Source of the DNA: a virus
Reading direction: 5' to 3' (one strand)
Length of the DNA: 64,000 nucleotides
IMG/VR virus record: IMGVR_UViG_3300034072_001149
Location: 95,201-159,200 of that record
Part shown: positions 951 to 61,726 of the stretch, piece after piece
Layout of the letters: each line of letters starts with the position of its first letter
How positions within the stretch are numbered: position 1 is the first letter of the stretch
Translations under genes and position numbers: made by a program
The notes under the pieces: generated by a model
Told to the model about the DNA's origin: nothing
Database searches by the model: none
The model's input: the letters and a program-made list of their open reading frames with translations, nothing else

Positions 951-1337
951 TCAGAAGTTGCCAAGAAACGATAGTTTGAACATAGTGGCATGTTTGGGAT
1001 CACCAAACTTGGCAGTGAGCTCTGTTTGTCTTTTTTTGGTGAAATAAAAGTTTAAACCTAGATCAACTTTGAATTCAAAACTGGCTTGATTTTCCGTTAT
1101 ACACTCTCGAGCCCATTCCATGATATTTCTATCACGGATGGCAAATGGTGCTCTTTGGAGAATACCACTTGTTCCTTCTGGATGCCACTCAGTAGTGACA
1201 TCAAAAGGAATAACAAATTTGACCCTATAAGGCGCCAGCAGATATTTTGGACTTGATCTAAAACGGTATTTGAACCGGAGGATGTTATCAAGGGGGTGGT
1301 CACCCCCTCCTCGCCTTGTGGAACTCATATTCCACAT
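951..1337 (-). CDS. FKL-motif small protein (paralogue family)
   Basis: 128 residues, function unknown. The C-terminus carries the window-wide signature (FGDPKHATMFKLSF): a beta-strand-like stretch, a short acidic turn, then A-x-x-FKL and an aromatic or hydrophobic end. A helix-like segment with Trp and Cys (MEWARECITENQ) precedes it, as in other members. The start overlaps the stop of the upstream ATP-grasp gene as TAATG, suggesting translational coupling. The first 20 residues are Arg/Gly-rich, and M4 is a possible alternative start. Confidence 0.8.
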   Translation of the reverse strand: MWNMSSTRRGGGDHPLDNILRFKYRFRSSPKYLLAPYRVKFVIPFDVTTEWHPEGTSGILQRAPFAIRDRNIMEWARECITENQASFEFKVDLGLNFYFTKKRQTELTAKFGDPKHATMFKLSFLGNF

Positions 1338-2170
1338 TATACGTCTTCACCAAGCCATTCGCGAGTAGCGGCTTTGCTGACCCCAATTACTACCTTTTCC
1401 AAATCACAGGCATATAAGCCAGCGCAGCTAAAACCATTGAGTTCAACGATCTTTGGACCATCTTCGGTTAGCGCGACGTCACAGGTGTATGCGATATCTA
1501 CCTGCCATTCATGATCTGCGACCTGCTGCGCCAAATTCCAACATTCTTGTGGCCAGTCTCGTCGCACGTCCAACTTGCCGTCCCAGCGATACTCTGAACC
1601 GGCAATAACCTGCTTGTCAGCTATCACGAAACGAAACTCACCTTGGATTTCCACTCCTGGATTCACCAGTATCAAGGTGTCTTCCATAACACCACTGATC
1701 TGCTCCAGAGTCGAGATGTCGTCATCTACCAGATCACGCTTGATGCGCTGGCCCGCGAACGTCTTGAATCCGCTATCAGGGCGGACAAAGAGTAGATTGG
1801 TGTTATGCTCAATGAAAAGTTCATGGGCTCGGTGTTTGAACATGGCCCAAGTCATGAATGTTGCTTTGCGATTGAGAAACCAATCCAAAGGAAGGTAGCT
1901 CATATACTGACTAGCAGAGGTTCGCCGGTTCACGCCAAGATGACCAGGTTGGAACCTACCATCTGGGTTTACCTTTTTGGTAAAATCATGTGACCCGTAG
2001 AGCACCACTGGTCCATCAATGCTGTCGATATGAGAATAAGTCCCGTCATCTTCTCGTTCAATCTCAATTACATCGTGACCAAGAGAGCGAATGACATCGG
2101 GCAAAGGACGCTGACCATAGATCATGCGTTCAAGAATGTAATCGTCGAGAATCCAAGTAACTTGAGCCAT
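1337..2170 (-). CDS. ATP-grasp domain protein (DUF4343-like)
   Basis: 277 residues. The features fit an ATP-grasp ligase: FVRPDSGFKTFAGQ and EFRFVIADKQVIAGSEYR resemble the lysine-bearing nucleotide-binding strands, and the C-terminal EDGPKIVELNGFSCAGLY supplies the Glu/Asn pair that binds Mg-ATP. ATP-grasp enzymes join a carboxylate to an amine or thiol; the substrate cannot be told. Related proteins are common in large T4-like phages. The start codon sits in the right arm of a 12-bp inverted repeat (2162-2198), and the stop is coupled to the next gene. Family call is firm; the role is unknown. Confidence 0.85.
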   Translation of the reverse strand: MAQVTWILDDYILERMIYGQRPLPDVIRSLGHDVIEIEREDDGTYSHIDSIDGPVVLYGSHDFTKKVNPDGRFQPGHLGVNRRTSASQYMSYLPLDWFLNRKATFMTWAMFKHRAHELFIEHNTNLLFVRPDSGFKTFAGQRIKRDLVDDDISTLEQISGVMEDTLILVNPGVEIQGEFRFVIADKQVIAGSEYRWDGKLDVRRDWPQECWNLAQQVADHEWQVDIAYTCDVALTEDGPKIVELNGFSCAGLYACDLEKVVIGVSKAATREWLGEDV

Positions 2171-2198
2171 CCTAAGTTGCTAAAACAGGATGGCTCAA
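2162..2198 (-). promoter_or_regulatory. 12-bp inverted repeat spanning the ATP-grasp start codon
   Basis: Perfect arms TTGAGCCATCCT (2162-2173) and AGGATGGCTCAA (2187-2198); the ATG (2170-2168) lies within one arm. No T-run follows on the minus strand, so it is unlike an intrinsic terminator. TTGACT just upstream (2199-2204) resembles a -35 box, so the repeat could be an operator or, if transcribed, a start-occluding hairpin. Confidence 0.55.
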
Positions 2199-2210
2199 AA
2201 GTCAATCAGC

Positions 2211-2558
2211 TTATGCCGCCTGTTGGATATCATCCTTGTAGTTCTGCTCAAAAGGCAGTTCAGTTAGGATCTCAACTTCATCACAAAGGCGTTCGACCTT
2301 GAGATTGGCTTCAGCCATTAAGGTTAGCATCATATTGCGAACCTGTTCTGACATCTGTATGACCTTGACATCAGCATCCAGATTTGGATCCCGACGTATC
2401 TGGTGCATACGATCTTTGGCCGCCTTACGAGCCTGCTGTAGAAGCATTTTGCTCACAGTTTGACTCACAGCCGCCAGCGAGATCTCGCCAGTTTCTTCCA
2501 CAGCTTCAGGCGCAATCTGAGTTAGGTCTAGATTAAACTCTACTTTGAACTTTGACAC
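2211..2558 (-). CDS. Conserved-looking phage protein, unknown function
   Basis: 115 residues, acidic and predicted largely helical after a short beta-like start (SKFKVEFNLDL). A central basic helix (KMLLQQARKAAKDRMHQIRRDP) is followed by an acidic C-terminal half. No motif was recognised. It stands alone between the 40-nt gap before the ATP-grasp gene and a 210-nt upstream gap (2559-2769). That gap holds only a short-loop GGGAC/GTCCC repeat and two copies of ATCTGCTAG. Confidence 0.75.
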   Translation of the reverse strand: MSKFKVEFNLDLTQIAPEAVEETGEISLAAVSQTVSKMLLQQARKAAKDRMHQIRRDPNLDADVKVIQMSEQVRNMMLTLMAEANLKVERLCDEVEILTELPFEQNYKDDIQQAA

Positions 2559-2769
2559 AGTCGATCTCCCAAACGGGTCTCTTATGCGGAAAAGGAAGAA
2601 TGCTCAGACCAAAAGGGACAAGTCCCAAGGGGCAAGTGGCCCTATTCCGATCTGTGTGCCTAAGCATGTCCTGTCCGCTAGCAGATTTTTCGCAAGAAGC
2701 CAAGAGCAAAAAATTATTCTTTGTCACGGCTTTGAAATACACCTACTAGCAGATTTCTAGAAACCAATT

Positions 2770-3087
2770 TTATTGATATAATCCAAAGCTTATGAAAAGC
2801 GGTAGGTCCGTTTCGTTATAAAGGCTATATGGACCAAGTTTGAAATATAACGCTTCTCTTACATCTTTGAAGATAATACGTATATAGGTATGAGGGATAT
2901 GATCAGGTGTAGGTGAGATTTCCTCAATCTGACTCAAGTCCCAAGGGCTTTTACAATTCTTATATAGCCAGATCTCCACAAAACTATAAAGAAGATCAAT
3001 GTTAATCTTCTTCAAATGGGTTACCTCTAAGGTAACTGTGAAACCATCAACCATAGACTGTGAATGAGACTCTCTTATCAAGTTCAT
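2770..3087 (-). CDS. FKL-motif small protein with C-terminal extension
   Basis: 105 residues of unknown function. The segment IRIIFKDVREALYFKLGPY matches the family signature (beta strand, acidic turn, A-x-x-FKL), but about 20 extra residues follow. A TAAATA core lies at 3092-3097, only 5 nt before this start. M12 (3054) would give more normal promoter spacing and is a plausible alternative start. The N-terminal half has an aromatic helix (LYSFVEIWLYKN) as in sister genes. Confidence 0.75.
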   Translation of the reverse strand: MNLIRESHSQSMVDGFTVTLEVTHLKKINIDLLYSFVEIWLYKNCKSPWDLSQIEEISPTPDHIPHTYIRIIFKDVREALYFKLGPYSLYNETDLPLFISFGLYQ

Positions 3088-3136
3088 CCCGTATTTATGA
3101 GTTGCGCCAATCTAATAGCGCAACTCACTCAGGCAC

Positions 3137-4339
3137 TCACTCACACAGATTAGTATCCCTGAAATCACTCCAAGAAGTGCCACCCCACAGATGGCGCATT
3201 GAATTGACCTTGGTCTGGCTACCAAGTTGTGATCCCACATACTTGATCAACAGCGCATAGACGCCTTCTTCGCCGTCTGCCAACCTGTCCCAAGTGGAGA
3301 ACTTGAAACCCTGCATTCCATCGTTGATCTTGGTGATCTTTTCAGCAAACTTTTTCTTGCTGCCGTTGAAGTTGTCAAAATCGGCCTGAACTTCCCAATA
3401 GAGATCGCTTGCCAACTTCTTCAATCCAACAAAGATGCTCTTCGCGAAATCATCAGCAGCTTGGACCAAGTCCTCGGGTAAAAAGGGCTTGGCATCATCA
3501 AGCTTTTCATCCACAATCAAGCGGATCACATCCTTTTCATGGTTGAGATGCTCAAGCGTCTTGTGGAGGAGAGAATACCATTCGCCCTTCAACTTGAGCA
3601 TGGTGCCATCGGCCCAGCGAAAAACGTCGCCTTCCTCGCCTTCAACGCCTCGGATCTCGGCAATGGTCTCGTCATCAATACCAGTGATCTCACCGGAGAA
3701 CGAACAGCAGGGAATACCATAGGACGCAGCCTCTTCCTTGAGGCAAGGAGCATCCATATACTCACCGGTTTCGTTATCACGAATAGCAGTCAGGACCAGC
3801 TGAGTCACGGGATAGTCGATAACGATGCGCTGGATACGCGAGCACCATTCAAAGATCGGTGTCTTGCCCTGGCTCATCCAATACTTACAGAACTCGTGGT
3901 ATTCAACACGATCCTTGGCCCACACATCAACCGGCGCGGCCACCCCCGTCAAACCCATCTTGGTACAGAAACGCACCTCACCCTTGATCAACAGAGGCGT
4001 GATCATGGATCCATCAAGCTTCTTGAAGCGGCGATAGGGCTTGGACCAGTCAACCGAACCGGGCATCGTTTCAGGACGCTCGCCCAAGTTGAAGAACTTG
4101 TGATACTTGCGAGAGATCACCTTACCCGTAGCGGTATCGAAAGTGATACCACGACATTCGCGCAGCAGAGCGGTCCGCCGATCGGTAACGGGCGGGAAGG
4201 TATCCTCGAAGTTGACCAGATAGTTGATCACGGTATAGCCGTGTTCCTCATCAACCTTGACTACGAATTCCTCACGGCCTTCAATGGCTTCAAGAACTTC
4301 CGACAAATGGGTAATCTTGGGAAATTGATATGAAGTCAT
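3137..4339 (-). CDS. rnlA: T4-type RNA ligase 1
   Basis: 400 residues from the ATG at 4339, chosen because AAGGTGA precedes it by 7 nt; the frame is open upstream but has no ribosome site. It seals 5'-phosphate to 3'-OH RNA ends using ATP, classically to repair host tRNA cut by anticodon nucleases. The nucleotidyltransferase motif FKKLDGSMI places the adenylated lysine at K107, and further ligase-like motifs follow (FEWCSR, DGTMLKLKGEWY). Size is close to T4 Rnl1 (374). A polynucleotide kinase partner was not found in this window. Upstream lies a TTGACA promoter overlapped by an inverted repeat (4383-4436). Confidence 0.93.
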   Translation of the reverse strand: MTSYQFPKITHLSEVLEAIEGREEFVVKVDEEHGYTVINYLVNFEDTFPPVTDRRTALLRECRGITFDTATGKVISRKYHKFFNLGERPETMPGSVDWSKPYRRFKKLDGSMITPLLIKGEVRFCTKMGLTGVAAPVDVWAKDRVEYHEFCKYWMSQGKTPIFEWCSRIQRIVIDYPVTQLVLTAIRDNETGEYMDAPCLKEEAASYGIPCCSFSGEITGIDDETIAEIRGVEGEEGDVFRWADGTMLKLKGEWYSLLHKTLEHLNHEKDVIRLIVDEKLDDAKPFLPEDLVQAADDFAKSIFVGLKKLASDLYWEVQADFDNFNGSKKKFAEKITKINDGMQGFKFSTWDRLADGEEGVYALLIKYVGSQLGSQTKVNSMRHLWGGTSWSDFRDTNLCE

Positions 4340-4382
4340 TGTTTTCACCTTATTGTTTGATCTAATGGTTTGCTGATAAGGA

Positions 4383-4436
4383 AATTTCCTGTCCAGCATC
4401 AATTTTGGACAATGACACTGAACAGGAAATTGTCAA
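4383..4436 (-). promoter_or_regulatory. Promoter with overlapping inverted repeat upstream of rnlA
   Basis: Minus-strand TTGACA lies at 4431-4436, with a weak -10 about 16 nt downstream (4409-4414). The 10-bp arms AATTTCCTGT (4383-4392) and ACAGGAAATT (4422-4431) bracket the -10 and touch the -35, an operator-like layout. The leader downstream shares CAGCAAACCxTTAG with the MoxR gene leader. Confidence 0.4.
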
Positions 4437-4463
4437 CCAGACTTTGGTGTCTATCACCCAAAA

Positions 4464-5084
4464 TTATGGGCGGTGTTCAATCACCTTGTCACCCAGGCCC
4501 ATCGCAACTGCTTCTTCTGCAGAAAGGAAGGTATCGAACTTCATGGTCTGGAAGAGCTCTTCATAAGTCTTACCAGCAGTATTGTGGCGGACATAAAGCT
4601 GGGTCAGACGCTCATTAATGCGTACCGATTCTTCAAAAGAACGCTTGGCGTCTTCGAACTGTAGATCCTGCACATGGACGGAACCCGAGGTTCCGCGAGT
4701 GCCGCTGCTGACCCGATGAATCATGGTACGCGATTCGGGAAGGAGATACCGCTTGCCAGCAGCGCCGGCCTGGGCCAGGAACGAACCCATTGAACAAGCC
4801 TGACCCATGACCAGCGTATTCACATCTGGCTTGATAAAGCGCATGGTATCATAAATCGCCAGCCCAGCAGTTACAGCACCACCGGGTGAGTTGATGTAAA
4901 GCCAAATATCCTTGGCGGGGTCTTCGCTTTCAAGGAAGAGAAGCTGGGCGCAGACAATCTGCGCCATCTGATCTTCAACCTGACCATTGAGAAACACGAT
5001 GCGCTCTTTGAGCAGGCGCGAATAGATATCATAGGCGCGCTCACCTCGACCGGTAGTCTCAATAACAGTTGGAACCAATGGCAT
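4464..5084 (-). CDS. clpP: ClpP serine peptidase subunit 1
   Basis: 206 residues, the length of bacterial ClpP. It forms the proteolytic chamber that degrades proteins threaded in by a Clp ATPase. The Ser98 (GQACSMGSF), His123 (RTMIHR) and Asp184 ([11 protein letters not shown]) triad aligns with the family, as does the INSPGG strand for substrate binding. It has its own ribosome site (AAGGAG before ATG) and sits alone between rnlA and a small gene. The window also encodes a second ClpP-like subunit (62384-63016) and ClpA with a docking loop (51218-53581). Confidence 0.95.
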
Positions 5085-5148
5085 TATAAAAACTCCTTGC
5101 GTTAGAACACCGTGTTAAAACCATAATCCATTGATAGCAATATTCAAA

Positions 5149-5460
5149 TTACTTTGATTCCCACGCCTGATGGCCACCTCGAAGCTTGAACATCAACGCA
5201 TCATTTTTGTCTTCAAACCGGACAACCATGGTATATTCGTCCGGTCTCCCTCTGACAGTTTTGTAGATAAAATAGGCCCATTTACCTGGAGTATTCTCCA
5301 CCAGCCAATCCTCTACAAGCTTGGCTGATTCAAAATTGTCAGGGACTTGGAATTGGGTACGTATCCATGATCTGTTCATAGGCCCCGTAAGAGATTTACG
5401 AAACAGCTTGTCGGTCTGGACTTCAAAATCAGTAAAAGTGAGATTTGTTGGCTTTTCCAT
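5149..5460 (-). CDS. FKL-motif small protein
   Basis: 103 residues. The C-terminal part reads VVRFEDKNDALMFKLRGG, a clear copy of the family signature, followed by a nine-residue tail. The middle contains VEDWLVENTPGKWAYFIYK, the Trp-containing helix, Gly and aromatic strand seen in paralogues. The gene is isolated, with an intrinsic terminator at 5508-5533 upstream. Function unknown. Confidence 0.82.
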   Translation of the reverse strand: MEKPTNLTFTDFEVQTDKLFRKSLTGPMNRSWIRTQFQVPDNFESAKLVEDWLVENTPGKWAYFIYKTVRGRPDEYTMVVRFEDKNDALMFKLRGGHQAWESK

Positions 5461-6325: not shown

Positions 6326-7615
6326 TTACGCCGCGCGGCGCTCGTCTTCCTTGACGTAATAGGCCGTCATGCCCCAAGGAGCAACAATGCTCGTGTTGCC
6401 GTGAACAATGAAGAGGGTATCGCAATAGTCCTCTTCACCCCACGTGCCGCACGGATAACCATCCGTGAACATCACGAACTTCTTGGGCTCGATACTGTCG
6501 CCGATACCCTCGATATCGCCGAAACCATAGCCAGCCGGATCGCGCATGAATTCCCAGTTACACTCGAACATGGTGCCACCACCGCCCTTGGGCTCATAGT
6601 CCATGATCTCGTCAATGTTGTTCTGCGTGAACACCTTGGGGTTATAGACCTGCGTGTCAAACGTCCAAAGCGTCAGCTTGAAGTCGTCGAACGTTTCCAT
6701 GATGCCCTTGGTTTCCGAGAGGAAATCGCGCAGCATCTGGTCGGTCATCGAACCCGAGGTGTCAATACAGACCGCAACATCAACAGTGTCCTTGAAGTTG
6801 CTGCCAGGCAGGATAACGGAAGCACCGCCACCAATACCCCACGACCGCTTGCTGGGGCGGTTGAACGTATAGTCATCCTTGATGGAAGACTGGATATGCA
6901 TCTCGAGCAGGGTCCGCCAGTCCATGATCGGATTGGTAAACGCGTCAATGAGACGCTTGACACCTGCGGGGACCTTGCCGGCGCCAACTGCCTGAGCGGC
7001 GTTGATAACAGCAGCCTTGATCTCATTGCGGATCTTTTGCTTGTCCTCTTCGGTCAACTGGGGAGGACCATCGGGACCGCCCTGGACCGTGACCGTAATG
7101 GTCTTGCCACTACCGTTGCCATCACCGTCGCCGTCACCATCGCTGCCATCCATTTCCAGATGCTCATCGAGCGTCATCTGAATCTTGGTCTGGTTCTGCT
7201 CCAGCAGGCGATACACCTCTTCCGAGGTCATTTCGTCTGTATACTTGTCATCATACAGACCGCCCTTGGGCATATTGCCCAGCTTTTCCTTGACCAGGGA
7301 ATAGTTGACGATGTAATCGTTCGCCATGTTCCACAGCTTGTGCTCTCGCGAGCCCTTACGACCAAGGTGGTCATAAACACAGTGGAGGACCTCATGACCA
7401 ATGAGGAACAGCAGTTCATCGGGAGTCAGAGACTTGATGAACTCGCGATTGTAATACAGCTTGCGGCCATCGGTAGCTGCCGTCTTACACCACTTGGTAG
7501 CATCCACGAGCTCCATGCGGGTTGCGAGGTTGCCGAAAAACGGCTGGTTGAAGAGGAGCCCTACTCGGGCCTTGACGATCGCCTGGACGACCGGATCGGA
7601 CATATTTGCTGCCAT
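6326..7615 (-). CDS. VWA-like protein with metallopeptidase-type N-domain (DUF2201/CobT-like)
   Basis: 429 residues. The N-terminal domain carries HEVLHCVYDH (HExxH at 74-78), a zinc-metallopeptidase signature. An Asp/Gly linker follows (about 157-170). The C-terminal von Willebrand A domain has the MIDAS motif DTSGS (285-289) and a downstream FTDGYP. Such proteins pair with MoxR-type AAA+ ATPases, and one is encoded next door (7773-8990). Comparable CobS/CobT-like pairs occur in T4-like marine phages with unknown role; protein or complex remodelling is the likely class of activity. The gene has a strong promoter of its own at 7643-7670. Confidence 0.88.
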   Translation of the reverse strand: MAANMSDPVVQAIVKARVGLLFNQPFFGNLATRMELVDATKWCKTAATDGRKLYYNREFIKSLTPDELLFLIGHEVLHCVYDHLGRKGSREHKLWNMANDYIVNYSLVKEKLGNMPKGGLYDDKYTDEMTSEEVYRLLEQNQTKIQMTLDEHLEMDGSDGDGDGDGNGSGKTITVTVQGGPDGPPQLTEEDKQKIRNEIKAAVINAAQAVGAGKVPAGVKRLIDAFTNPIMDWRTLLEMHIQSSIKDDYTFNRPSKRSWGIGGGASVILPGSNFKDTVDVAVCIDTSGSMTDQMLRDFLSETKGIMETFDDFKLTLWTFDTQVYNPKVFTQNNIDEIMDYEPKGGGGTMFECNWEFMRDPAGYGFGDIEGIGDSIEPKKFVMFTDGYPCGTWGEEDYCDTLFIVHGNTSIVAPWGMTAYYVKEDERRAA

Positions 7616-7642
7616 GAGATCCTTCCTTTTGTTGTATCCGCT

Positions 7643-7670
7643 ATTATAACGGATAACATCATCGTGTCAA
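7643..7670 (-). promoter_or_regulatory. Strong sigma70 promoter for the VWA gene
   Basis: Minus-strand TTGACA (7665-7670), 16-nt spacer and TATAAT (7643-7648): both hexamers match consensus exactly. A TAAATA core (7672-7677) adjoins the -35 on its upstream side. Confidence 0.8.
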
Positions 7671-7712
7671 CTATTTAGGTGACAAGGTTCGTTGCGATTT
7701 TGGGATAAAATG

Positions 7713-7742
7713 AAAGGGTGGCCTGTTGCCAAGCCACCCTTT
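7713..7742 (-). terminator. Hairpin terminator after the MoxR gene
   Basis: Perfect 10-bp stem AAAGGGTGGC/GCCACCCTTT with a 10-nt loop, followed on the minus strand by CATTTTATCC. It lies 31 nt after the MoxR stop. Confidence 0.75.
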
Positions 7743-7772
7743 CCCCGTTAGGCCACGGGAAGCCGTTACGGA

Positions 7773-8990
7773 TTAAGCCGCCAGGATCAGATCCTGATAC
7801 TTGTCCGAGAACTCGTCCCAGTTCTTCATGCCCGACGGGTCGAACTGGATCCGGAAGATTGCCAGCGCCGTGCGCGAGCCCATGATGACCATTTCCGACT
7901 GGAAGTTCTTCATCATGAAGCCCAGGAAGTTGTCCACGTTGGTCGAGAACTTCTTCTTGTCCTCGGCCTTGGCGCCCTTGGCGATCGACGCGTCATACCG
8001 GTCCTTGAGCTCATAGCACAGAGCAGTGGTCAGAGCATACATCAGCGAGATGTCAGCACCCTTCTTCAGCTCAGTGATCTTGCCCTCGAGGATGTCGCCA
8101 GCTGCGGGCAGATTCGCCGCATTCTTGCGATATTCCAGGAACTTGACCGCAATGCCGTCACCGACCGAGCCGGCGATCAGCGACATCTGGACCGTTTCCG
8201 GAATGTTGGGATCACCGCGCAGAATGTCGGAGACCATTTCCCAGGAACGCGGGGTGGGGAAGCCGCGCGACGCGCTGGTAGCCTCGAACTGGAACAGTTC
8301 GTGCTTGAAAGCGGTCAGGTAGCCAACCACCGCCTGGTGGAAGCCGGTCTGAAGTGCGAAGGTCTGGAAATCCTCGAAGTCCACGCGCATTTCAATGTGC
8401 GTGAAGCGATTCTGCAGAGGCGTGGGCATCTTGAACGTCGCGCCCTTGTCAGTCTCGCGGTTACCCGCCGCCATCACGATCACGTTGTCGGGGACCACGT
8501 ATTCGCCCAGGGCGCCATCGAGAACCAGCTGGTAGGAGCCGGCCTGTACCGACGGAGCAGCGTTGGGCAGTTCGTCCAGCAGGATAATCGCACCATCGTA
8601 CTGATGACCCATGTCGTCAGTGATCTGAGCCTTGCGCAGCGGAGTGCCATCTTCGGCAACAGCGCGCTTGGGCAGCATCTGCGGGATAGCCCATTCGACA
8701 TATGCGCGACCGGTCTGGTCGTCCTTGAAAGGAACCGGAATACCGCGAAGGTCGGTGGGTTCCATCTGCGTCAGTCGGATATCGATGAGCTTGAAGTTCA
8801 GTTCGTCAGCGACCTGCTCGACGACCGAAGACTTGGCAATGCCAGGTGCGCCCCAGATAAACAGACCACGACGCTTCTTGCCGCGTTCTGCGTTCTCGAG
8901 GTTGACCTTCACCATATGCTTGATAGCAATCGCAGCCTCCGACGGCTTGACCGTCAGTGTGTCGATGCGCGTTGAACCCTTCTTGGACAT
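7773..8990 (-). CDS. MoxR/CobS-like AAA+ ATPase
   Basis: 405 residues from the ATG at 8990 (AGGAG seven bases upstream); upstream codons are in frame but lack a ribosome site. Walker A is GAPGIAKS (47-54), Walker B is AIILLDELPNA, sensor 1 is VIVMAAGNRET, and QNRFTHIEM supplies an arginine-finger region. MoxR ATPases act as chaperones that remodel a partner through a VWA protein; here the partner is most likely the adjacent 6326-7615 product. Its own promoter (9038-9065) and the two genes' separate terminators mean they are transcribed independently though adjacent. Confidence 0.9.
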   Translation of the reverse strand: MSKKGSTRIDTLTVKPSEAAIAIKHMVKVNLENAERGKKRRGLFIWGAPGIAKSSVVEQVADELNFKLIDIRLTQMEPTDLRGIPVPFKDDQTGRAYVEWAIPQMLPKRAVAEDGTPLRKAQITDDMGHQYDGAIILLDELPNAAPSVQAGSYQLVLDGALGEYVVPDNVIVMAAGNRETDKGATFKMPTPLQNRFTHIEMRVDFEDFQTFALQTGFHQAVVGYLTAFKHELFQFEATSASRGFPTPRSWEMVSDILRGDPNIPETVQMSLIAGSVGDGIAVKFLEYRKNAANLPAAGDILEGKITELKKGADISLMYALTTALCYELKDRYDASIAKGAKAEDKKKFSTNVDNFLGFMMKNFQSEMVIMGSRTALAIFRIQFDPSGMKNWDEFSDKYQDLILAA

Positions 8991-9037
8991 TTTAACTCCT
9001 GTTGTTTGGCCTAACGGTTTGCTGTAAACCTTCACCA

Positions 9038-9065
9038 TTACTAGCGTCAATGAAAGAGGTGTCAA
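9038..9065 (-). promoter_or_regulatory. Sigma70-like promoter for the MoxR gene
   Basis: TTGACA (9060-9065) and TAGTAA (9038-9043) with a 16-nt spacer on the minus strand. The leader downstream contains CAGCAAACCGTTAG and CAAACAACAGGAG, shared with the rnlA leader. Confidence 0.5.
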
Positions 9066-9173
9066 CCAACTTTTTTCCACTAGGTGAAGATTTCTGCCCT
9101 CCGCCGTGTTTCAGCTGTTAACTGACAGGTAAAGGTTACGCAATAAAGAATTTTATCAAAGGTGAATTTTTCT

Positions 9174-17067: not shown

Positions 17068-17286
17068 TCATGCTAAGAATTTGGTATACGGCGCCGTTGC
17101 TAGTTCTTCAAGAAAAGCGAGATAGTCATTTTCAGAATCAAACTCGAATTCTATTAGACCATCATGTCCGGTGACCGGGTTACGATAGTGAACTTTTGCC
17201 TCTACCTTTTCAAATACATTGAAAGAATGAGTGATTCTATGAATTTGAGAAACTAGTATGGTAAAATCATTAGTAACTAGAAACAT
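17068..17286 (-). CDS. Small protein, possible remote FKL-family relative
   Basis: 72 residues. It ends IEFEFDSENDYLAFLEELA followed by nine residues. The layout (beta strand, acidic turn, hydrophobic helix at the C-terminus) resembles the FKL family, but the FKL-x-W core itself is absent, so I do not count it as a member. It diverges from the GIY-YIG gene on the other strand with 15 nt between starts. Confidence 0.6.
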   Translation of the reverse strand: MFLVTNDFTILVSQIHRITHSFNVFEKVEAKVHYRNPVTGHDGLIEFEFDSENDYLAFLEELATAPYTKFLA

Positions 17287-20377: not shown

Positions 20378-21112
20378 TTAGGAGTGGCCCTTCATGCTCA
20401 GCATGAGCTTGTAGAACTCGTCCTTGAGGTGCGGTTCATCACGGAACTTGCCGCGCATGATCGCAGTCGTCATGTCAGACTCATGTTCCTTAACACCACG
20501 ATGTGTCATACAGTGATGTTCTGCTTTTAGAACAACCGCAACATTCTCGGTCTCAGCATAACGAACCAGTTCGTCAGCAATCTGAGTTGTCATTTCTTCC
20601 TGGATTTGTGGACGTTCCGCAATCCAGTGAACAATGCGATTGAACTTCGAGAGTCCAATGACCTTGTCCTCAGGGAAGATACCAACCCAGCAGCGACCCA
20701 CAATGTTCTGGAAGTGATGAGCACAGGTCGAACGAATCGAGATCGGACCAGCAGTGTAGAGGTCCTGGTAGCCTACGTTGGGGAACGAAGTAATCTTTGG
20801 TGCCGCGACATAGCGACCACCATAGGTTTCGTTGACATACATCTTGGCAACTCGACGAGCGGTGCCATTAGTGTTGTGATCGTGGTCAGTGTCGATGACT
20901 AGGCTACGGAGAACTGCTTCCATCTTTTCGGTGACTTCGTCAACCAGTAGAGCGCGCTCTTCATCAGTGATGAACTTTGCGATATTGTCATTACAATGAA
21001 ACTGCTGACCGGCTTCAATGAGGCGCGCACGGATCTTCTCAGAAACGGGAACCTCTTGCCCATGGGCGCAATCGTTGGAACCACAGCCCGTGGTAAGTTT
21101 GGTATCGGACAT
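20378..21112 (-). CDS. folE: GTP cyclohydrolase I
   Basis: 244 residues. It converts GTP to 7,8-dihydroneopterin triphosphate, the first step of both folate and 7-deazaguanine synthesis. Zinc ligands are Cys130 and His133 in CAHHF and Cys201 in HHCMTHRG; the usual CEHHF Glu is Ala. IVGRCWVGIFPEDKVIGLSKF and the catalytic-region KEHESDMTT are well kept. The N-terminus has a Cys-rich lead (TTGCGSNDCAHG). With QueE and a QueD-like protein it makes up most of a preQ0 route. Promoter TTGACA at 21167-21172. Confidence 0.95.
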   Translation of the reverse strand: MSDTKLTTGCGSNDCAHGQEVPVSEKIRARLIEAGQQFHCNDNIAKFITDEERALLVDEVTEKMEAVLRSLVIDTDHDHNTNGTARRVAKMYVNETYGGRYVAAPKITSFPNVGYQDLYTAGPISIRSTCAHHFQNIVGRCWVGIFPEDKVIGLSKFNRIVHWIAERPQIQEEMTTQIADELVRYAETENVAVVLKAEHHCMTHRGVKEHESDMTTAIMRGKFRDEPHLKDEFYKLMLSMKGHS

Positions 21113-24110: not shown

Positions 24111-24348
24111 ATAGCGTGGCCTTTCTGATATCTTCAATATAGATGTAGCAAGCTAGTATCTTTACCTTGGTTTCAGGGGATTCATTCGTGCTGAAGAAAT
24201 CAGATATTTCTTCATATACAACCTGGAAATCGTATTCAATTTCCAGGTCGTTGAACCACTGAATTACATCATCTGTCAATCTTGGTTCAAAAAACTGATG
24301 GTCTTGGATCCAAGAACATGGCTTACTAAAATCCGCTTTGAAGATCAT
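24091..24348 (-). CDS. FKL-motif small protein
   Basis: 85 residues ending LACYIYIEDIRKATLFKLTWL, a near-consensus copy of the signature. The N-terminus (MIFKADFSKPCSW) and helix DVIQWFNDLEIEYDFQV also fit the family. It starts within the stop of the QueD-like gene (ATGA). Confidence 0.85.
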   Translation of the reverse strand: MIFKADFSKPCSWIQDHQFFEPRLTDDVIQWFNDLEIEYDFQVVYEEISDFFSTNESPETKVKILACYIYIEDIRKATLFKLTWL

Positions 24349-55939: not shown

Positions 55940-56659
55940 TTGAGCCATTGGTGTTTTACCACCTACATGGAATACAAATACGTAGCCCCACCAGAGGAAG
56001 CCGCCGATGACTGGATGGCTCACCACATATCAATTTTTGTGAAGGTGGATAACCGAGACTCCTTTTGGGAGTTCTTGGAGAGATACTGCGGACCTAAGGG
56101 CCAAAATTGGAAAATCTCTGATAATCAGGAAAGATGGATCTGGGGAGATGAAGAAATTGATCTCCGCTTTCGTTTCAAAAAGCACGCCATGGTCGTCAAG
56201 CTTCAATGGGATGAAGACGTTCGTCCAAACAATAGGCCCTGGGAATATCTAAAGAAGTTGATTCTAACGTCACACCCTTTGCGGCCTGTAGGTAATCCTT
56301 TGATTGGTCAAAGCTCGTCAAATGGTCTTGGCCGCAATATACAGACCATCACCTGGGACCCTATCTTTCGTCCAAGCAACTGGAATAGCCCAATAGGTGG
56401 AATTTATAGCCCAACAACGAACCTCGAGCCGTTGTCAGAAAAAGCTTATAAGAAAAAGGGAAGCCCCATAGTTCTAGACCTAGAATCCCGAATTGAAACC
56501 TACTGGACTGAAGGAAGTTCAGAAGAGACAGAACATCGACGTTCTATGAAAATTCAATACCTCAAAGGCAGAACAAATGGACCTAGATCACAGTCGGCCA
56601 AGATATCAGGGGCGCAAGCAACATTATCTATATGGGATGAAATTCCTCCTGAATCCTAA
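55940..56659 (+). CDS. FKL-type protein with long C-terminal extension
   Basis: 239 residues from a TTG; the ATG at 55967 (M10) is an equally good start. The N-terminal third is the family domain, with DSFWEFLERYCGPKGQNWKI and then LRFRFKKHAMVVKLQWDED. The remaining 145 residues are a polar, Ser/Asn/Pro-rich extension (NRPWEYLKK, IGGIYSPTTNLEP) not seen in short members. Its end overlaps the next family member by 83 nt. Function unknown. Confidence 0.72.
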   Translation: MSHWCFTTYMEYKYVAPPEEAADDWMAHHISIFVKVDNRDSFWEFLERYCGPKGQNWKISDNQERWIWGDEEIDLRFRFKKHAMVVKLQWDEDVRPNNRPWEYLKKLILTSHPLRPVGNPLIGQSSSNGLGRNIQTITWDPIFRPSNWNSPIGGIYSPTTNLEPLSEKAYKKKGSPIVLDLESRIETYWTEGSSEETEHRRSMKIQYLKGRTNGPRSQSAKISGAQATLSIWDEIPPES

Positions 56660-57047
56660 CAGACAATCGGACCTAGAGGAAACCCTGAAATCTTTTGAAA
56701 TCACAAAATATAGGCTATCTGCCAATAATATGTATGGCGGTATGATGGCTGAAGAAGCTTTCATAAGTTTCCGTATAAAGAAACAAGCCCTATTGTTCAA
56801 ATTGGCATGGGTTCCGTGTGAAGATGTATCACTAGAAACCAAGGGTATGATTATCAGGCAAATCGTTCCCAACCGCATTGCCCAGGAGATCTTAAGCGTC
56901 CAGCCTTTGGGAGATCTCGTAAAGCCCTTGGTCCAGGCGCGCGATGATCTCCGCCCCGCCTCGTCGACTACTTCTCCAAATTCGTACGAAGTCCGTCCTG
57001 GAGAACGAAGTGAAACAGGCTCGGACCGCACCTCTGGTGGATTTTAA
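56577..57047 (+). CDS. FKL-motif protein with C-terminal extension
   Basis: 156 residues from the ATG at 56577 (AAAGGC upstream). The domain is FEITKYRLSA..., then FISFRIKKQALLFKLAWVP, followed by a 70-residue Arg/Ser-rich tail (SVQPLGDLVKPLVQ...). It starts 83 nt inside the previous gene in another frame; M21 (56637) is an alternative that would shorten the overlap. Confidence 0.72.
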   Translation: MDLDHSRPRYQGRKQHYLYGMKFLLNPNRQSDLEETLKSFEITKYRLSANNMYGGMMAEEAFISFRIKKQALLFKLAWVPCEDVSLETKGMIIRQIVPNRIAQEILSVQPLGDLVKPLVQARDDLRPASSTTSPNSYEVRPGERSETGSDRTSGGF

Positions 57048-57162: not shown

Positions 57163-57654
57163 ATGAATGAAATCACGGACAGAACATATATGCCACACAT
57201 CTTTTGTGACTTCGATGGTGTTCTCGTAGACTTTGAACGAGGATTCGAGATCCAGTACGGCAAAAAGCACAATGAAGTTCCTGAGTTCGTGATGTGGAAG
57301 ATCATCAAGAACAACATGACACACTGGGAACAATTGCCCGCAATGCCAGGAGCCCTACAGCTATGGGCCTTTATCGCTCCTCACAATCCTACGATCCTTA
57401 CTGGTTGCCCGACCAGTGGAAAGCAGCAAGCTGAAGAAGGCAAGACGATTTGGAAGAATCGTGAACTAGGAGAGCATGTTCCGATTATTACCTGCCTAAG
57501 CCGCTATAAGCCCAAATACATGCAGACCCCTGGCGATATTCTCATTGACGACATGGAAAAGAACATTATACGTTGGACTGAAGCCGGCGGTGTGGGTATT
57601 CTACACACTTCAGCAGCAGACACGATTGAGCAGCTAAAAGCCAGGGGATTCTGA
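57163..57654 (+). CDS. HAD-like 5'-nucleotidase
   Basis: 163 residues. FCDFDGVLVDF is the catalytic D-x-D-G-V/T motif I of HAD phosphatases. PTILTGCPT supplies motif II Thr, and ILIDDMEKNI motif III/IV Asp pair. The size fits the small nucleotidases that dephosphorylate (deoxy)nucleotides. Substrate not known. A TATAAT at 57123-57128 may be its -10. The next gene starts within its stop. Confidence 0.85.
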   Translation: MNEITDRTYMPHIFCDFDGVLVDFERGFEIQYGKKHNEVPEFVMWKIIKNNMTHWEQLPAMPGALQLWAFIAPHNPTILTGCPTSGKQQAEEGKTIWKNRELGEHVPIITCLSRYKPKYMQTPGDILIDDMEKNIIRWTEAGGVGILHTSAADTIEQLKARGF

Positions 57655-58133
57655 TGTTAGAGATTTTTGGAATCATCGCTGGAATTATTTTCTGCATCGT
57701 AGTTGGGGGCGTTGTCGCAAAAATGATTAGCGACATCATCCAAACCCCAAAGAGCGCAATCATTCTGCGTTCGATGTTAGAAGATACAAAACACAGCAGA
57801 GGAAACATGGCAACTTTTAACATTAGCGGACGCAGCTTTCGCGGACAGAATATCACGATCACAAACGATCGAATCGTCATTGACGGCAAGGATGTCACTG
57901 ATGAATACGACATCAAACCCGCAGGTATCTTGGAAATCAAGATTACTGAAGGGGTGATCGGCAATCTGACCACCGATGCCAACGTGAGCGCAGGCGATAT
58001 CTCGGGCAATGTCGATGCTGGTGGTAATGTTAGTTGTGGCAGTGTTGGTGGTAGCGTGGACGCTGGTGGCAATGTCAGTTGCGGAATCGTTGGTGGTGAC
58101 GTTGATGCAGGAGGTAATGTTCGACATGGCTAA
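57654..58133 (+). CDS. Membrane-anchored protein with repeat beta-solenoid-like tail
   Basis: 159 residues. An N-terminal hydrophobic helix (IFGIIAGIIFCIVVGGVVA) is followed by a domain starting MATFNISGRSF. The C-terminal repeats (SVDAGGNVSCGIVGG and variants) have a six- to eight-residue Gly/Val/Asp period typical of short beta-solenoids. Related repeats occur in phage proteins of unknown role. M52 (MATFNIS) could be a second start producing a soluble form. Confidence 0.72.
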   Translation: MLEIFGIIAGIIFCIVVGGVVAKMISDIIQTPKSAIILRSMLEDTKHSRGNMATFNISGRSFRGQNITITNDRIVIDGKDVTDEYDIKPAGILEIKITEGVIGNLTTDANVSAGDISGNVDAGGNVSCGSVGGSVDAGGNVSCGIVGGDVDAGGNVRHG

Positions 58134-58515: not shown

Positions 58516-59406
58516 ATGGGCGGAAATGCGTTTCCGGGCCTGCCGATGGTGCGGGTCCGAAGGGAGGATGTAGCCTCCACAGTAGATCATGTTGTCACGG
58601 TTATGAACATGCCAGGCTTCACTCGTGAGTATGCGATGGATAACCTCATGGGTAGTGCGGGCAAGCAAGATGATAGCGGAGACCTTGACTTTGCGCTCAA
58701 CGATCGAGCAGCTAGGTTTTATGGTGAGCCTGATCTTCCGGTTTTCAGCCTCAAAGCTTTCGCAGCCAGGGCTAGAGAAGTCCTACCACCGGGTCATGTT
58801 CAGACAAAAACTCTCAAGGGTGGACAGTTCCAGACCGCCTTCCCCGTTGCTGGTGATCCCAGCAAGGGTTACGTTCAGGTTGACTTCGTTGCTGGTAACC
58901 CTGAATGGTTGAAGTTTAGCCATTTCTCTCCAGGTAAGGATTTCAGTCCTTATAAGGGTGTTATGGTTTCTACCATGCTAGGCGTTTTGGCTAAAATGCG
59001 AAAGGACTTTGAACTCTATGAAGGGGAGGAACGGGTTGCTCGAGTTGGCCTCAGGTTTGACTTGGAGAAGGGGCTTTATCGTCAGTGGAAGCTTCGCAAA
59101 CTAGAGAACCAAGGCATGAGTGTTGTTACGGCTGACGAATTTGAGACTGCTGTTGCAACTTGCCCACGCTTTGCGCGTTTGAGTCATGTCACAGCACCTT
59201 GTGAGGTGCTGAGGCTGCTGTTCGGGGAGCCCGTCAGCTTGGAGGAGGTAAACACCTTTGAGAAACTGGTTTCCTCGGTTCGCCGGTATCTTCCTGAACG
59301 TTTTGAGGAAGCCCGAGAACGATTCCTCGAAGCGTTCATGCGAAGCGCCGGAAAGAATGACTACACGCTGGAAGAAGTTGCCTCCGACAGCGTTTGGTCA
59401 CAGTGA
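58516..59406 (+). CDS. Nucleotidyltransferase-fold protein
   Basis: 296 residues. GGNAFPG at the start and MGSAGKQDDSGDLDFALN match phage nucleotidyltransferases with a GGN motif, GS-x-G-K and D-x-D. YVQVDFVAGN gives the third Asp strand. It transfers a nucleotide to an unknown target. Its GC content is higher than that of its neighbours, and it is flanked by hairpins on both sides, hinting at separate acquisition. Confidence 0.8.
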   Translation: MGGNAFPGLPMVRVRREDVASTVDHVVTVMNMPGFTREYAMDNLMGSAGKQDDSGDLDFALNDRAARFYGEPDLPVFSLKAFAARAREVLPPGHVQTKTLKGGQFQTAFPVAGDPSKGYVQVDFVAGNPEWLKFSHFSPGKDFSPYKGVMVSTMLGVLAKMRKDFELYEGEERVARVGLRFDLEKGLYRQWKLRKLENQGMSVVTADEFETAVATCPRFARLSHVTAPCEVLRLLFGEPVSLEEVNTFEKLVSSVRRYLPERFEEARERFLEAFMRSAGKNDYTLEEVASDSVWSQ

Positions 59407-59408
59407 AG

Positions 59409-59462
59409 TAACCGCGCCGTTGAGATACCGACAACCCCTTCTCTCGGTCTCCGGCGCGGTTA
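59409..59462 (+). terminator. Long-loop hairpin terminator
   Basis: TAACCGCGCCG/CGGCGCGGTTA, perfect 11-bp GC-rich stem, with its own weaker inner pairing in a 32-nt loop, starting 3 nt after the stop. Confidence 0.65.
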
Positions 59463-59464
59463 TT

Positions 59465-59680
59465 ATCGCAATAGCAGGTGATGTTGAACCAAGAAGTTGG
59501 TGTGATGATTGTTGCGTAGGTGACTGGTATTGTGAAACATCAGACCTGGGCCCAGTCCAGCTTGGTTCCTTGAATCTCCCACTCCATTGCTTTCATTTTT
59601 CCAATGCCGCCGATTTGAAAATGTTCAGTTTTGTTTTCTCCACCAATATGAAGCTTGCTCTTGAAGTCGTTATGGACTAA
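59465..59680 (+). pseudogene. FKL-family gene without a proper start
   Basis: The frame encodes SWCDDCCVGDWYCETSD, then FHFSNAADLKMFSFVFS, matching family features (compare EWADNCCRGSW at 34142-34591). No ATG, GTG or TTG start with a ribosome site lies nearby in frame; the ATG at 59481 with AGGTG is in another frame and stops after 12 codons. Likely a decayed or frameshifted copy, or one with an unusual start. The final core reads FSFVF rather than FKL. Confidence 0.5.
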
Positions 59681-59689
59681 AAGAGTGGA

Positions 59690-60082
59690 ATGGAAGAAGA
59701 CGAACTCCTTCGCTACCTAACCAATACCGCCAAATCTATTCAGCGCAGTCTGAGGTTTTCTGTCAGTGCCTCTATGATTTTTCCGGTATTCTCTGTTATC
59801 TTCTACTTCTTCGGTCCCGGTTATATCAGTTTAACCACCGTATTGGCTTCTATCACTTCATTGATTGTGGTTTACTGTATTCATTATAGCTCACATGGAC
59901 ACATACAAAACTGGTGGTGGCTCAAGCCAGGATTCTTTGTAACTATTCCAACAACGTCAGACGTTGATCAGGCCAGGAAATGGTGTAAGGATCAGTCTTA
60001 TGAATTTGTCGAAGTAACCACCGGTGTATTCAAATTCTTCAAATCTAGGGATGCCGTCCACTTCAAGCTTTCTTGCTTCTGA
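59690..60082 (+). CDS. Membrane-anchored FKL-motif protein
   Basis: 130 residues. Two hydrophobic spans (ASMIFPVFSVIFYFF and LASITSLIVVYCIHY) form a hairpin, followed by HGHIQNWW, nearly the same junction as YGHMTNWW in 34142-34591. The soluble part ends VFKFFKSRDAVHFKLSCF. First intact member of the seven-gene cluster. Function unknown. Confidence 0.82.
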   Translation: MEEDELLRYLTNTAKSIQRSLRFSVSASMIFPVFSVIFYFFGPGYISLTTVLASITSLIVVYCIHYSSHGHIQNWWWLKPGFFVTIPTTSDVDQARKWCKDQSYEFVEVTTGVFKFFKSRDAVHFKLSCF

Positions 60083-60224
60083 ATAATTGAAATTTAATCC
60101 GCAAGGTGTTAATCTAAATTACCTCACGAATAGATCGAATAACTTTGTGAGGAAAAGAGTGGATATTCAATCCAAACTGACTACTGGTTCCTTCGGTTTC
60201 TTGATGCGATACTTGGAGGGAATC

Positions 60225-60560
60225 ATGGACGACTATGATTACACGCCTTATTTTCGGTCAAAGCGAAAGGATTGGGAGAGCAACTATGATCCCAAGTTCC
60301 AAAGCCCTAGTCGCGCCAAAGAGCTTCATACAGCAGCTTCTAGTCTTTCGTCCTTGCCTAGTAACCGCTGGGTTAGACCACGTCTTCCTGAGGGCTCTGA
60401 GACGCTAGGAAAAGAGTTCCTAGCAGATTTGAAGAGATGGTTTAGCGAGCATAAGATCAAGCATCGATCCTGTTTGATTACAGAAAATAGTGAAACCTTT
60501 TGGGTCTACATTTTCAAGAAGCCAAGCGACGCCGTATTGTTCAAATTAGCCTGGGGCTGA
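60225..60560 (+). CDS. FKL-motif protein
   Basis: 111 residues from the ATG at 60225 (GGAGGG five bases upstream); the frame is open further upstream but without a ribosome site. Ends FWVYIFKKPSDAVLFKLAWG, a consensus signature. Helix DLKRWFSEHKIKHRSCLIT is the W-helix plus strand. Followed 1 nt later by the next member. Confidence 0.83.
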   Translation: MDDYDYTPYFRSKRKDWESNYDPKFQSPSRAKELHTAASSLSSLPSNRWVRPRLPEGSETLGKEFLADLKRWFSEHKIKHRSCLITENSETFWVYIFKKPSDAVLFKLAWG

Positions 60561-60561
60561 T

Positions 60562-60909
60562 ATGAAGCATAGAAAAAAGCCAAAGCGTCGAGCATTCCGT
60601 AGAAGGTTTGTTTTACAGTCTTTTAGAGGTTCTCCCAATCTCAGAAGATGCGACCTGATCACTAGTGGTTGGCGCATCATTTCTGAACTTGAATTCGCCA
60701 AACCAATAATGCGAGATGTTGAAAGAATATGGCTCAACCTCTTTGCTCCTGATGCGAAAATCACTTATCGTTTCGTTGAGAACTATAAGAATATGCCGCT
60801 CTATCGAAAAGGCAAGTGGAACGGCAAAGCATATTTTGTCACATTCGAGGAAAAAGATGTTCTAAAAGCTATGAACTTCAGGGTTTCCTGGTGGGACTTT
60901 AATGAGTAA
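60562..60909 (+). CDS. FKL-family protein, divergent
   Basis: 115 residues. Very basic start (MKHRKKPKRRAFRRRFVLQ). The end YFVTFEEKDVLKAMNFRVSWWDFNE keeps the strand, acidic turn, hydrophobic triplet and W but has FRV for FKL. It overlaps the next gene by 8 nt. Nucleic-acid binding is possible from charge alone. Confidence 0.75.
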   Translation: MKHRKKPKRRAFRRRFVLQSFRGSPNLRRCDLITSGWRIISELEFAKPIMRDVERIWLNLFAPDAKITYRFVENYKNMPLYRKGKWNGKAYFVTFEEKDVLKAMNFRVSWWDFNE

Positions 60910-61207
60910 GAAGTGCTATGTTGTCGAATGTGATTATCGACAGCTTTCAGCAGAAGCAATTCACTGGATTGAAAACTATAGCAGCGATCTAGCTTGGATT
61001 ACACGTCGCTGGAGAATATGGTCTGAACCAGCCAGAGAGGATGAACTTACTCTGGACGAATACTTCAATATGGTCTATTCCAAACACGAACCTAAAATAC
61101 CTCTTAGGAGAAGACAGATTGACGCCGTTCAATTTGTAAGTAAAAGAGATGCTTTGTATTTCACATTGGTGTTGCTAGATGACTCACAAGGAACCAGTTC
61201 GCTCTGA
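60902..61207 (+). CDS. FKL-family protein, divergent
   Basis: 101 residues. The end AVQFVSKRDALYFTLVLLDD has the strand, K-R-D-A turn and F-x-L but not the Lys or Trp. The front half is Trp-rich (ITRRWRIWSEPARED). Overlaps the next gene by 29 nt. Function unknown. Confidence 0.72.
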   Translation: MSKKCYVVECDYRQLSAEAIHWIENYSSDLAWITRRWRIWSEPAREDELTLDEYFNMVYSKHEPKIPLRRRQIDAVQFVSKRDALYFTLVLLDDSQGTSSL

Positions 61208-61424
61208 TCTTATCATTCCCAAGATGCGGAATGGCAAACCCATGGGTATTCTTGTGAGAAAGCGCAAGGGCACCACCCAGACTGTCCTCCCTGAAGTCAG
61301 GGAATGGTTGCGGACCTATACAAAAGGTCATTGGTATTTCTTTACCAATTCACAGACCAATCAACTATCCATTGCCTTCCATAACAAGCAAGATGCTTTG
61401 CTTTGGAAACTCGCATGGCATTGA
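61179..61424 (+). CDS. FKL-motif small protein
   Basis: 81 residues ending LSIAFHNKQDALLWKLAWH; the Phe of FKL is Trp. W-helix and strand: VREWLRTYTKGHWYFF. The next gene begins inside its last codons. Confidence 0.82.
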   Translation: MTHKEPVRSDLIIPKMRNGKPMGILVRKRKGTTQTVLPEVREWLRTYTKGHWYFFTNSQTNQLSIAFHNKQDALLWKLAWH

Positions 61425-61726
61425 AGCCTTTGTTCTATATGCTGTCAAAGCACGGACCATGGGATCATCATGTCCGGGTTAACAGTATTCTGACTATGTT
61501 GGAGGTTGAGAACTGGCTCAACAGCACAGGAAAAGTGCTCAATGTGGATTATGAATGCTTAATTGAAAACATCGAGAACAAAGCCACCAAGAAGACTTTT
61601 GTTCCGAATCTTCATTCAAATCGCAACAAAACAATGGGTCGAGCAGTCCAGACGGTTGAGCCAATTATATTTTTCAATGACTCAACCATCGCGACCTATG
61701 TAAAACTTACATGGGGTGGCCGATAA
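61415..61726 (+). CDS. FKL-family protein
   Basis: 103 residues from the ATG at 61415 within the end of the previous gene. Ends PIIFFNDSTIATYVKLTWGGR, with VKL-T-W and a short tail. The helix VENWLNSTGKVLNVDYECL fits. Last gene of the cluster; convergent with infA, whose stop lies directly beyond. Confidence 0.8.
   Translation: MALKPLFYMLSKHGPWDHHVRVNSILTMLEVENWLNSTGKVLNVDYECLIENIENKATKKTFVPNLHSNRNKTMGRAVQTVEPIIFFNDSTIATYVKLTWGGR

Follow-up and report, generated by a model that had tools for sequence, protein, structure and literature searches.

An apparently undescribed family of small FKL-x-W proteins and its hyper-expansion among the jumbo-phage relatives of Sinorhizobium phage Phosso

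The window analysed here is a 64,000-base stretch that forms the final 64 kb (bases 95201–159200) of the 159,200-base virus record IMGVR_UViG_3300034072_001149. It holds a group of small genes whose products carry, usually at the C-terminus, the pattern DA-x-x-FKL-x-W, and we refer to these as the FKL-x-W family. Sequence profiles show that the members are homologous, and that hyper-expansion of the family, which appears not to have been described previously, is common to many jumbo-phage contigs related to Sinorhizobium phage Phosso. The record itself is most likely a fragment of a jumbo phage akin to Phosso, given the kinship of its DNA ligase and DNA polymerase and the size of its close relatives (417–465 kb). 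The NAD-dependent DNA ligase encoded in the window is nearest to that of Phosso (469 kb; 47%), followed by those of Xanthomonas phage XacN1 (43%) and Agrobacterium phage Atu_ph07 (40%); the DNA polymerase of the record is nearest to that of Phosso (57%), followed by Atu_ph07 (52–53%) and then by GAP32, Kaldavass and RaK2 (41–42%).

A family shared by many jumbo-phage contigs

The original prediction, made from the letters of the window, was that one family of approximately 22 genes lay there in six clusters. This was examined with two profiles that contain no sequence of this genome, searched against all 427 open reading frames (ORFs) of the window with at least 40 amino acids (aa), the only size class considered, with reversed ORFs as the control. 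The first was built from 245 members from four related phages (contigs G002, G003 and G005, and Phosso), and the second from two other contigs (G021 and G012); the rows of both were initially chosen with a window-seeded profile, so that their selection, although not their content, is partly circular. With the first, 21 ORFs matched at an expect value (E) below 0.01, 19 of them below 1e-3; no other ORF of the window scored better than E = 0.22, and no reversed ORF better than 0.75. A profile hidden Markov model had been expected to draw the members together above background, and it did so. The second profile was weaker: it matched 16 ORFs at E < 0.01, of which 13 fell below 1e-3, and its best score for a reversed ORF was 0.19; five of the 21 (starting at 59690, 24995, 61403, 56577 and 60902) score just 0.02 to 0.3 with it, the range in which an unrelated ORF (17068–17286) also falls, at 0.10. 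All 21 lie within the six predicted clusters: three at 951–5460, three at 21184–22513, five at 24091–25811, two at 33894–34630, two at 55940–57047 and six at 59258–61726. The predicted membership thus stands for these 21, but not for 24345–24716 in the third cluster, which has no profile match and is not a member (it is 69–92% conserved in four relatives), nor for 60562–60909 (FRVSW), which both outside profiles missed. A motif arising by chance is ruled out by the reversed controls, by the genome-free profiles and by nine other phages that have no match at E ≤ 1 (XacN1, RAS14, T4, P-SSM2, phiM12, phage G, RaK2, CcrColossus and phiKZ).

A seed of 15 cores was extended across all ORFs of at least 40 aa in the record of the window, three related contigs and Phosso. 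This gave 319 members at E < 1e-3: 20 in this record, 82 in G002 (436 kb), 100 in G005 (417 kb), 64 in G003 (183 kb) and 53 in Phosso, with the best reversed ORF at 0.27 to 1.3 over four rounds. Six contigs with a DNA polymerase 79–92% identical contained 47–83 matches apiece to the same seed at E ≤ 0.01. The most extreme case is G021 (561 kb), in which 261 members score below 1e-3 and 315 below 1, reversed ORFs reaching 0.24 to 0.77 at best across three rounds. There the family accounts for approximately 27% of some 949 genes and for 83 kb of ORF; in the other records counted its share runs from 8.2% (Phosso) to 20.4% (G003), the gene totals behind these shares being our own approximate calls. 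Phosso is an isolate, and the stretches of it that were checked include 30 of its 53 members; all 30 are annotated coding sequences, which, together with purifying selection (see below), rules out a non-coding artefact. An assembly artefact is an unlikely source of the expansion because of these isolate annotations and because the best paralogs within G021 are only about 35% identical (median).

The expansion broadly follows phage kinship. A search with the DNA polymerase matched 16 of 24 records, and 12 of the 13 with at least 50% identity hold at least 12 members, the exception being Atu_ph07. Two contigs sit poorly with a strict clade rule: G008 (266 kb), with 69 matches at E ≤ 0.001, and G012 (75 kb), with 49 members, have no match to the polymerase of the window's record. 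Either these fragments lack the part encoding the polymerase, or other phages also carry the expansion. A DNA pattern scan yielded 24 stretches, and 12 of the 16 of their records that were searched whole have a match at E ≤ 0.01. Beyond these, Pseudomonas phage PA5oct has three members (EST35_0247, EST35_0274 and EST35_0275; E 4e-7 to 5e-6), small unknown proteins which, unlike those of the window, form no array; the uncultured LR756502 has two weak matches (0.05), and the profile search found none in BcepSauron. A pattern scan of prokaryotes, with each species represented by one genome, gave 30 stretches, approximately the chance expectation as calculated; three of them, from the alphaproteobacteria Methylobacterium terricola, Microvirga aerophila and Pseudoroseomonas deserti, contain members at E < 1e-4, and on the Pseudoroseomonas contig an integrase gene adjoins the member. 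The expansion within one genome that had been predicted is therefore seen, but it is not confined to one genome.

Some individual members deserve mention. The Methylobacterium protein (1576–2112 of L258; 711–1247 of L178) has two copies of the domain in one chain, and the viral contig L178 that carries it also has integrase, HNH endonuclease and Holliday resolvase genes. In tblastn searches of the phage collection, single members gave no match, or Phosso at E 1, apart from one conserved member outside the window; a related-locus search with one single member found nothing. The member at 32181–32552 of G000 (13181–13552 of L010), outside the window, has tblastn orthologs in Phosso (57.5%) and Atu_ph07 (48.6%); its C-terminal tail is strongly basic, and it is a possible founder of the family.

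Conserved core, divergence and gene arrangement

The family consensus ends in YFKDKKDAMLFKLTWG. In an alignment of 285 members, the most conserved positions are a Trp in the first helix (97%), which bears out the predicted Trp helix ahead of the motif, and the Phe of the last strand (84%), followed along the chain by the Ala (92%), Phe (91%), Lys (92%) and Leu (94%) of the motif and its terminal Trp (70%) or Phe (24%). Among the aligned columns there is no conserved set of residues with a catalytic appearance; the conserved positions resemble a core and helix cap, plus one Lys. Nor is any Cys or His column conserved, the commonest Cys reaching 21% (column 12). The genes had been predicted to end in the motif, and 230 of the 319 members do end within 3 aa of the profile match, as do 80 of the 124 not closely followed by another gene on their strand; the other 89 do not, including the window genes starting at 2770, 24995, 55940 and 56577, with tails of 21, 28, 149 and 78 aa. 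The N-termini differ in length and in net charge; net charges in the family span −14 to +7 or more, and 10 of the 319 have a strong hydrophobic segment.

AlphaFold2 models of two members suggest a ferredoxin-like β-α-β-β-α core without a clear last strand. Model 1 (61179–61421; 94 alignment rows, mean predicted local distance difference test score 74.5) is confident from approximately residue 36, its N-terminus not being resolved, and has a helix at 38–47, strands at 52–57 and 62–67 and a helix at 70–80. Model 2 (5152–5460; 73 rows, mean score 77) has a strand at 33–40, a helix at 43–56, strands at 61–67 and 75–82 and a helix at 85–93. Of the four-stranded β-α-β-β-α-β order, model 2 thus has β-α-β-β-α and model 1 α-β-β-α, with FKL-x-W falling in the last predicted helix. 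The proposal of a single fold is upheld to the extent that both modelled members have a consistent core and unrelated folds were not seen. The predicted order resembles that of the ferredoxin-like superfold (ACT domains of TyrA, AcuB and others, PII, microcompartment shell proteins and RRM), from which the family differs in having no clear predicted last strand, no sequence match and no demonstrated ligand or RNP motif. The highest structural Z scores, 3.6 for model 1 and 7.7 for model 2, do not exceed what is found without kinship. The best PDB match for model 2 is V-ATPase subunit a (Z 7.7, root-mean-square deviation (rmsd) 2.7 over 68 residues), ACT-type matches have Z 7.0–7.7, and RRM matches lie at or below 3.6 for model 1, with one at 6.1 for model 2. 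Viral structure matches all stay short of E 0.001, short unknown proteins of PA5oct and uncultured phages being among the closer ones. Model 2 matches the fold of one PA5oct protein, A0A4Y5JU60 (probability 1.00, rmsd 2.2), which may or may not be one of the three PA5oct members. It should be noted that the structural libraries gave matches at the level of the superfold only, and that absence of a family from them excludes nothing.

That no known family or function would be recognized had also been anticipated. Searches of Pfam, PHROGs, NCBIfam and PADLOC with 94 members gave no match better than E 0.01, and what matches PHROGs, NCBIfam and PADLOC gave concerned single members; neither the RRM nor the ACT model of Pfam is among the matches at E 0.1, and PDB sequences gave nothing better than 0.034. 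Identity with a family of these libraries is rejected on these results. Ten long members (nine of the twelve longest and one other) gave a single weak match to Pfam, at E 0.046, when enzyme domains were sought. No description of the family was found in the literature searched, a search that most subscription journals and preprints lay beyond. The nearest parallel is Bacillus phage G, for which Iyer et al. (2021; PMC7824862) report approximately 35 copies of a zinc ribbon, likewise a case of one small protein expanded within a single jumbo-phage lineage; the FKL-x-W family differs in lacking conserved Cys or His, in reaching 261 copies and in having no match in phage G. The accessible text of the Atu_ph07 paper (PMC6102473) does not contain the words ‘paralog’ or ‘duplicat’, and that on the Sinorhizobium jumbo phage AP-J-162 (PMC11242549) gives 304 unique ORFs and mentions no such family.

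The members are under purifying selection and yet diverge faster than other genes; positive selection is not claimed. Seventeen of the 20 members of this record have reciprocal best hits in G002, and orthologs keep a corresponding order across the phages. The ratio of nonsynonymous to synonymous substitution rates (dN/dS) is 0.03–0.47 in the 14 of 19 ortholog pairs between this record and G002 for which dS could be computed, dS not being computable in the other five. When family and other genes of these two records were compared under the same rules, pooled dN was 0.29 for the 19 family pairs, as against 0.12 for 65 other genes of 70–169 aa and 0.08 for 152 other genes; median identities were 68%, 88% and 90%, and dN/dS ratios 0.17, 0.10 and 0.07, respectively.

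Neighbouring members are arranged in tandem and overlap, as had been noted, most commonly by 10 or 4 bases. In the 10-base overlap, the last codons x-TGG-NNA-TGA read ATG-GNN-ATG in the next frame and therefore offer two possible start codons; such overlaps suggest translational coupling. The largest arrays consist of two convergent blocks, one per strand: 18 + 17 genes in G002 (183514–195775), 21 + 27 in G005 (194581–210864) and 21 + 57 in G021 (362250–386480), the last being a run of 78 genes in which 21 on one strand are followed by 57 on the other. Diversification by duplication had been proposed, and single genomes do bear a tandem signature: in G021 the best paralog lies at most two ranks away for 61 members, compared with 3.6 expected (maximum 15 in 2000 shuffles). 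Over four other phages the sum is 24 versus 10.7 expected, each alone having P 0.05–0.10. Because the neighbour excess is strong in G021 and weak in the other four, duplication was tandem, yet is old in most phages. Junction DNA is similar in 121 G021 members ending FKL-x-W-x; its conservation stops at the stop codon and tracks the protein motif. In two Phosso stretches the members stand amid tRNAs, small unknown genes and genes for nucleotide metabolism, chaperones and translation, with no annotated head or tail gene.

Members and neighbours in the window

In what follows, E values are those from the 245-member profile unless stated otherwise. The first four clusters are on the minus strand. 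In the first, 951–1337 (128 aa, ending FKLSFLGNF; E 1.4e-6) has a 68% ortholog in G002, 2770–3087 (105 aa; E 5.8e-10) has orthologs in G002 (98%), G003 (50%) and G005 (47%), and 5149–5460 (103 aa; E 4.5e-13), the subject of model 2, has orthologs at 79–40%, Phosso included. The second comprises 21184–21609 (141 aa, with an insertion ahead of MFKLSSY; E 8.4e-5), the weak member 21606–22046 (146 aa, ending MLRLSL; E 0.0081), which overlaps the next gene by 4 nt and has weak BLAST similarity to 22013–22513, and the latter itself (166 aa, ending LVKLSVP; E 4e-7), with a hydrophobic N-terminal segment by hydropathy. In the third are 24091–24348 (85 aa, ending FKLTWL; E 2.2e-9), 24753–25007 (84 aa, ending FKLTWM; E 4.1e-12), 25315–25545 (76 aa, ending FKLRWM; E 4.6e-12) and 25536–25811 (91 aa, ending FKLTWS; E 3.7e-12), which overlaps the next gene by 10 nt. 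The fifth member there, 24995–25612 (E 6.9e-5; 0.089 with the G021/G012 profile), is listed at 205 aa and overlaps 25315–25545 in a different frame, and its real start probably lies downstream of the listed one. The fourth cluster contains 33894–34151 (85 aa; E 7.9e-9; orthologs 69–40%) and 34142–34630 (162 aa, ending FKLAWG; E 1.3e-8), the latter with a membrane segment predicted from hydropathy and a 10-nt overlap with the next gene.

The remaining two clusters are on the plus strand. In the fifth, the domain is internal both in 55940–56659 (FKKHAMVVKLQW; E 1.3e-6) and in 56577–57047 (ALLFKLAW; E 1.5e-4, 0.27 with the G021/G012 profile), of which the G005 ortholog matches at 2.4e-4. The sixth begins with 59258–59680 (140 aa), a divergent and uncertain member (the two outside profiles give E 9.7e-4 and 0.0012, an earlier one 0.29), and continues with 59690–60082 (130 aa, ending FKLSCF; E 7.3e-4, 0.023 with the G021/G012 profile), which has a hydrophobic segment by eye and a G002 ortholog that scores as membrane-like. 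Then follow 60087–60560 (157 aa, ending FKLAWG; E 1.9e-10), the weak member 60902–61207 (101 aa, DALYFTLVLL; E 0.0047, 0.3 with the G021/G012 profile), whose G002 ortholog has DALYFKLVF, 61179–61424 (81 aa, ending WKLAWH; E 5.9e-15), the subject of model 1, and 61403–61726 (107 aa, ending VKLTWGGR; E 2.9e-5, 0.13 with the G021/G012 profile).

An R2K-clade ATP-grasp enzyme (1337–2170) and a T4-type RNA ligase (3137–4402) sit between family members. At 6326–9080, a DUF2201 metallopeptidase/VWA-like protein adjoins a MoxR-like AAA ATPase, and a 473-aa ORF runs antisense to the former. A GTP cyclohydrolase I is encoded at 20378–21112, which we take to be possibly part of a modified-base pathway. 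Repetitive Gly-rich VDAGGNVSCG segments at 57654–58133 look bactofilin-like by eye; in Phosso, an annotated polymer-forming cytoskeletal protein (121158–121571) lies close to family members. Protease-related proteins of the window include ClpP (4464–5084), an ATP-dependent protease (phrog_4871; 51218–53581) and a head maturation protease-like protein (62384–63016).

Possible roles of the repertoire

Phage early host-takeover proteins, which are usually unrelated to each other, are small, clustered, fast-evolving and of unknown function. The FKL-x-W proteins share these four features and differ in that a single family supplies dozens to hundreds of them. We tentatively favour, at somewhat less than an even chance, a repertoire of binding proteins, each of a single domain, that would act on targets in the host or in rivals. 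Each member would be a small protein with, nearly always, one predicted ferredoxin-like β-α-β-β-α core, in which the conserved C-terminal half (the Trp helix, two strands and the helix with DA-x-x-FKL-x-W) may serve as the scaffold and the N-terminal strand, loops and extensions as the variable parts. Tandem overlapping genes would probably be translated together as sets. Most members would be non-virion proteins that bind different targets in the host or in competing elements, so that the repertoire may serve host takeover and counter-defence, having grown by tandem duplication with the copies then retained as individual genes. That they bind rather than catalyse, and most likely bind host targets, is suggested by conservation of the core and cap, by the lack of a catalytic-looking residue set and by the finding of nothing convincing in the long members with Pfam.

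Several observations weigh against this repertoire of binding proteins. A large repertoire is not essential, because Atu_ph07 (polymerase 53%) holds just seven matches, at E 7e-6 to 0.14. Between G002 and G005 there are 45 reciprocal best hits out of 82; so many stable orthologs are as compatible with fixed roles as with an arms race. Because dS is near saturation and is itself raised in the family (1.70, compared with 1.13–1.17 in other genes), the excess of dN relative to dS is modest. There is no enrichment of a common promoter ahead of the arrays (9 of 79 family heads versus 96 of 1136 others). Finally, a passive scaffold does not explain the conserved Lys and the mostly C-terminal position of the domain.

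The strongest rival, which we nevertheless consider unlikely, is a set of adaptors, in which the constant C-terminal helix (DA-x-x-FKL-x-W and one to three further residues) would dock to one phage machine, for example a Clp/Lon-type protease, and the variable N-terminus would pick the client. The usual ending of the chain just after the motif, also where no gene closely follows, the conservation of a Lys within an otherwise hydrophobic motif and the variation of the N-termini in length and charge are all consistent with this, as are the members beside the ClpP gene of the window, its ATP-dependent protease gene and the ClpX, ClpS, FtsH and ClpP genes that share a stretch with the PA5oct members. 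However, the motif is predicted to lie within the folded core, which may by itself account for its conservation; the Lys or Trp is missing from some members in Atu_ph07 and PA5oct, and jumbo phages carry many protease genes. Packaging could also account for a shared C-terminal signature with variable N-termini, the former as the signal and the latter as cargo injected into the host. Such virion-associated proteins seem very improbable, as none of the three PA5oct members bears the note of electrospray ionization tandem mass spectrometry (ESI-MS/MS) given to other proteins of the same stretch, and the four Atu_ph07 members with an annotated coding sequence that were examined are each called ‘hypothetical protein’.

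The structural matches of model 1 include many RRM chains, and these, like the one conserved Lys and the strongly basic tail of the member with Phosso and Atu_ph07 orthologs, would fit nucleic-acid-binding regulators, whose RRM- or ferredoxin-like core would tune phage or host RNA in the manner of a large post-transcriptional regulator set. We regard this as quite unlikely, in view of Z scores that are expected without kinship, the wide span of net charges and the absence of a Pfam RRM match among 94 members. It is also conceivable that the arrays grew mostly neutrally, with repeated similar junctions recombining to add or remove copies, most of which would have little or no function, leaving a few conserved orthologs that work. 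The similar junction DNA and strong neighbour similarity in G021 would fit, as would copy numbers that differ greatly between relatives; dN/dS well below 1 in the computable pairs, the low identity of the best G021 paralogs, which implies old and retained copies, and the corresponding order of orthologs across phages make it quite unlikely that this is the main explanation.

Across the six jumbo-phage records with a gene count, the family provides approximately 8–27% of all genes by approximate gene calls, and so explains a good part of the size of those phages and of their unannotated genes; the current family libraries tested do not see it. If the common dock were real, and we think it rather improbable, these phages would possess an adaptor library, one docking module with up to a few hundred paralogs of variable recognition that redirects machinery to many host proteins, and this would be a protein-level counterpart of a guide repertoire. 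As binding proteins, the members may offer a natural set of hundreds of variants on one scaffold for finding the host targets of phages, and the isolate Phosso, which grows on Sinorhizobium meliloti and carries the family, makes this directly testable.

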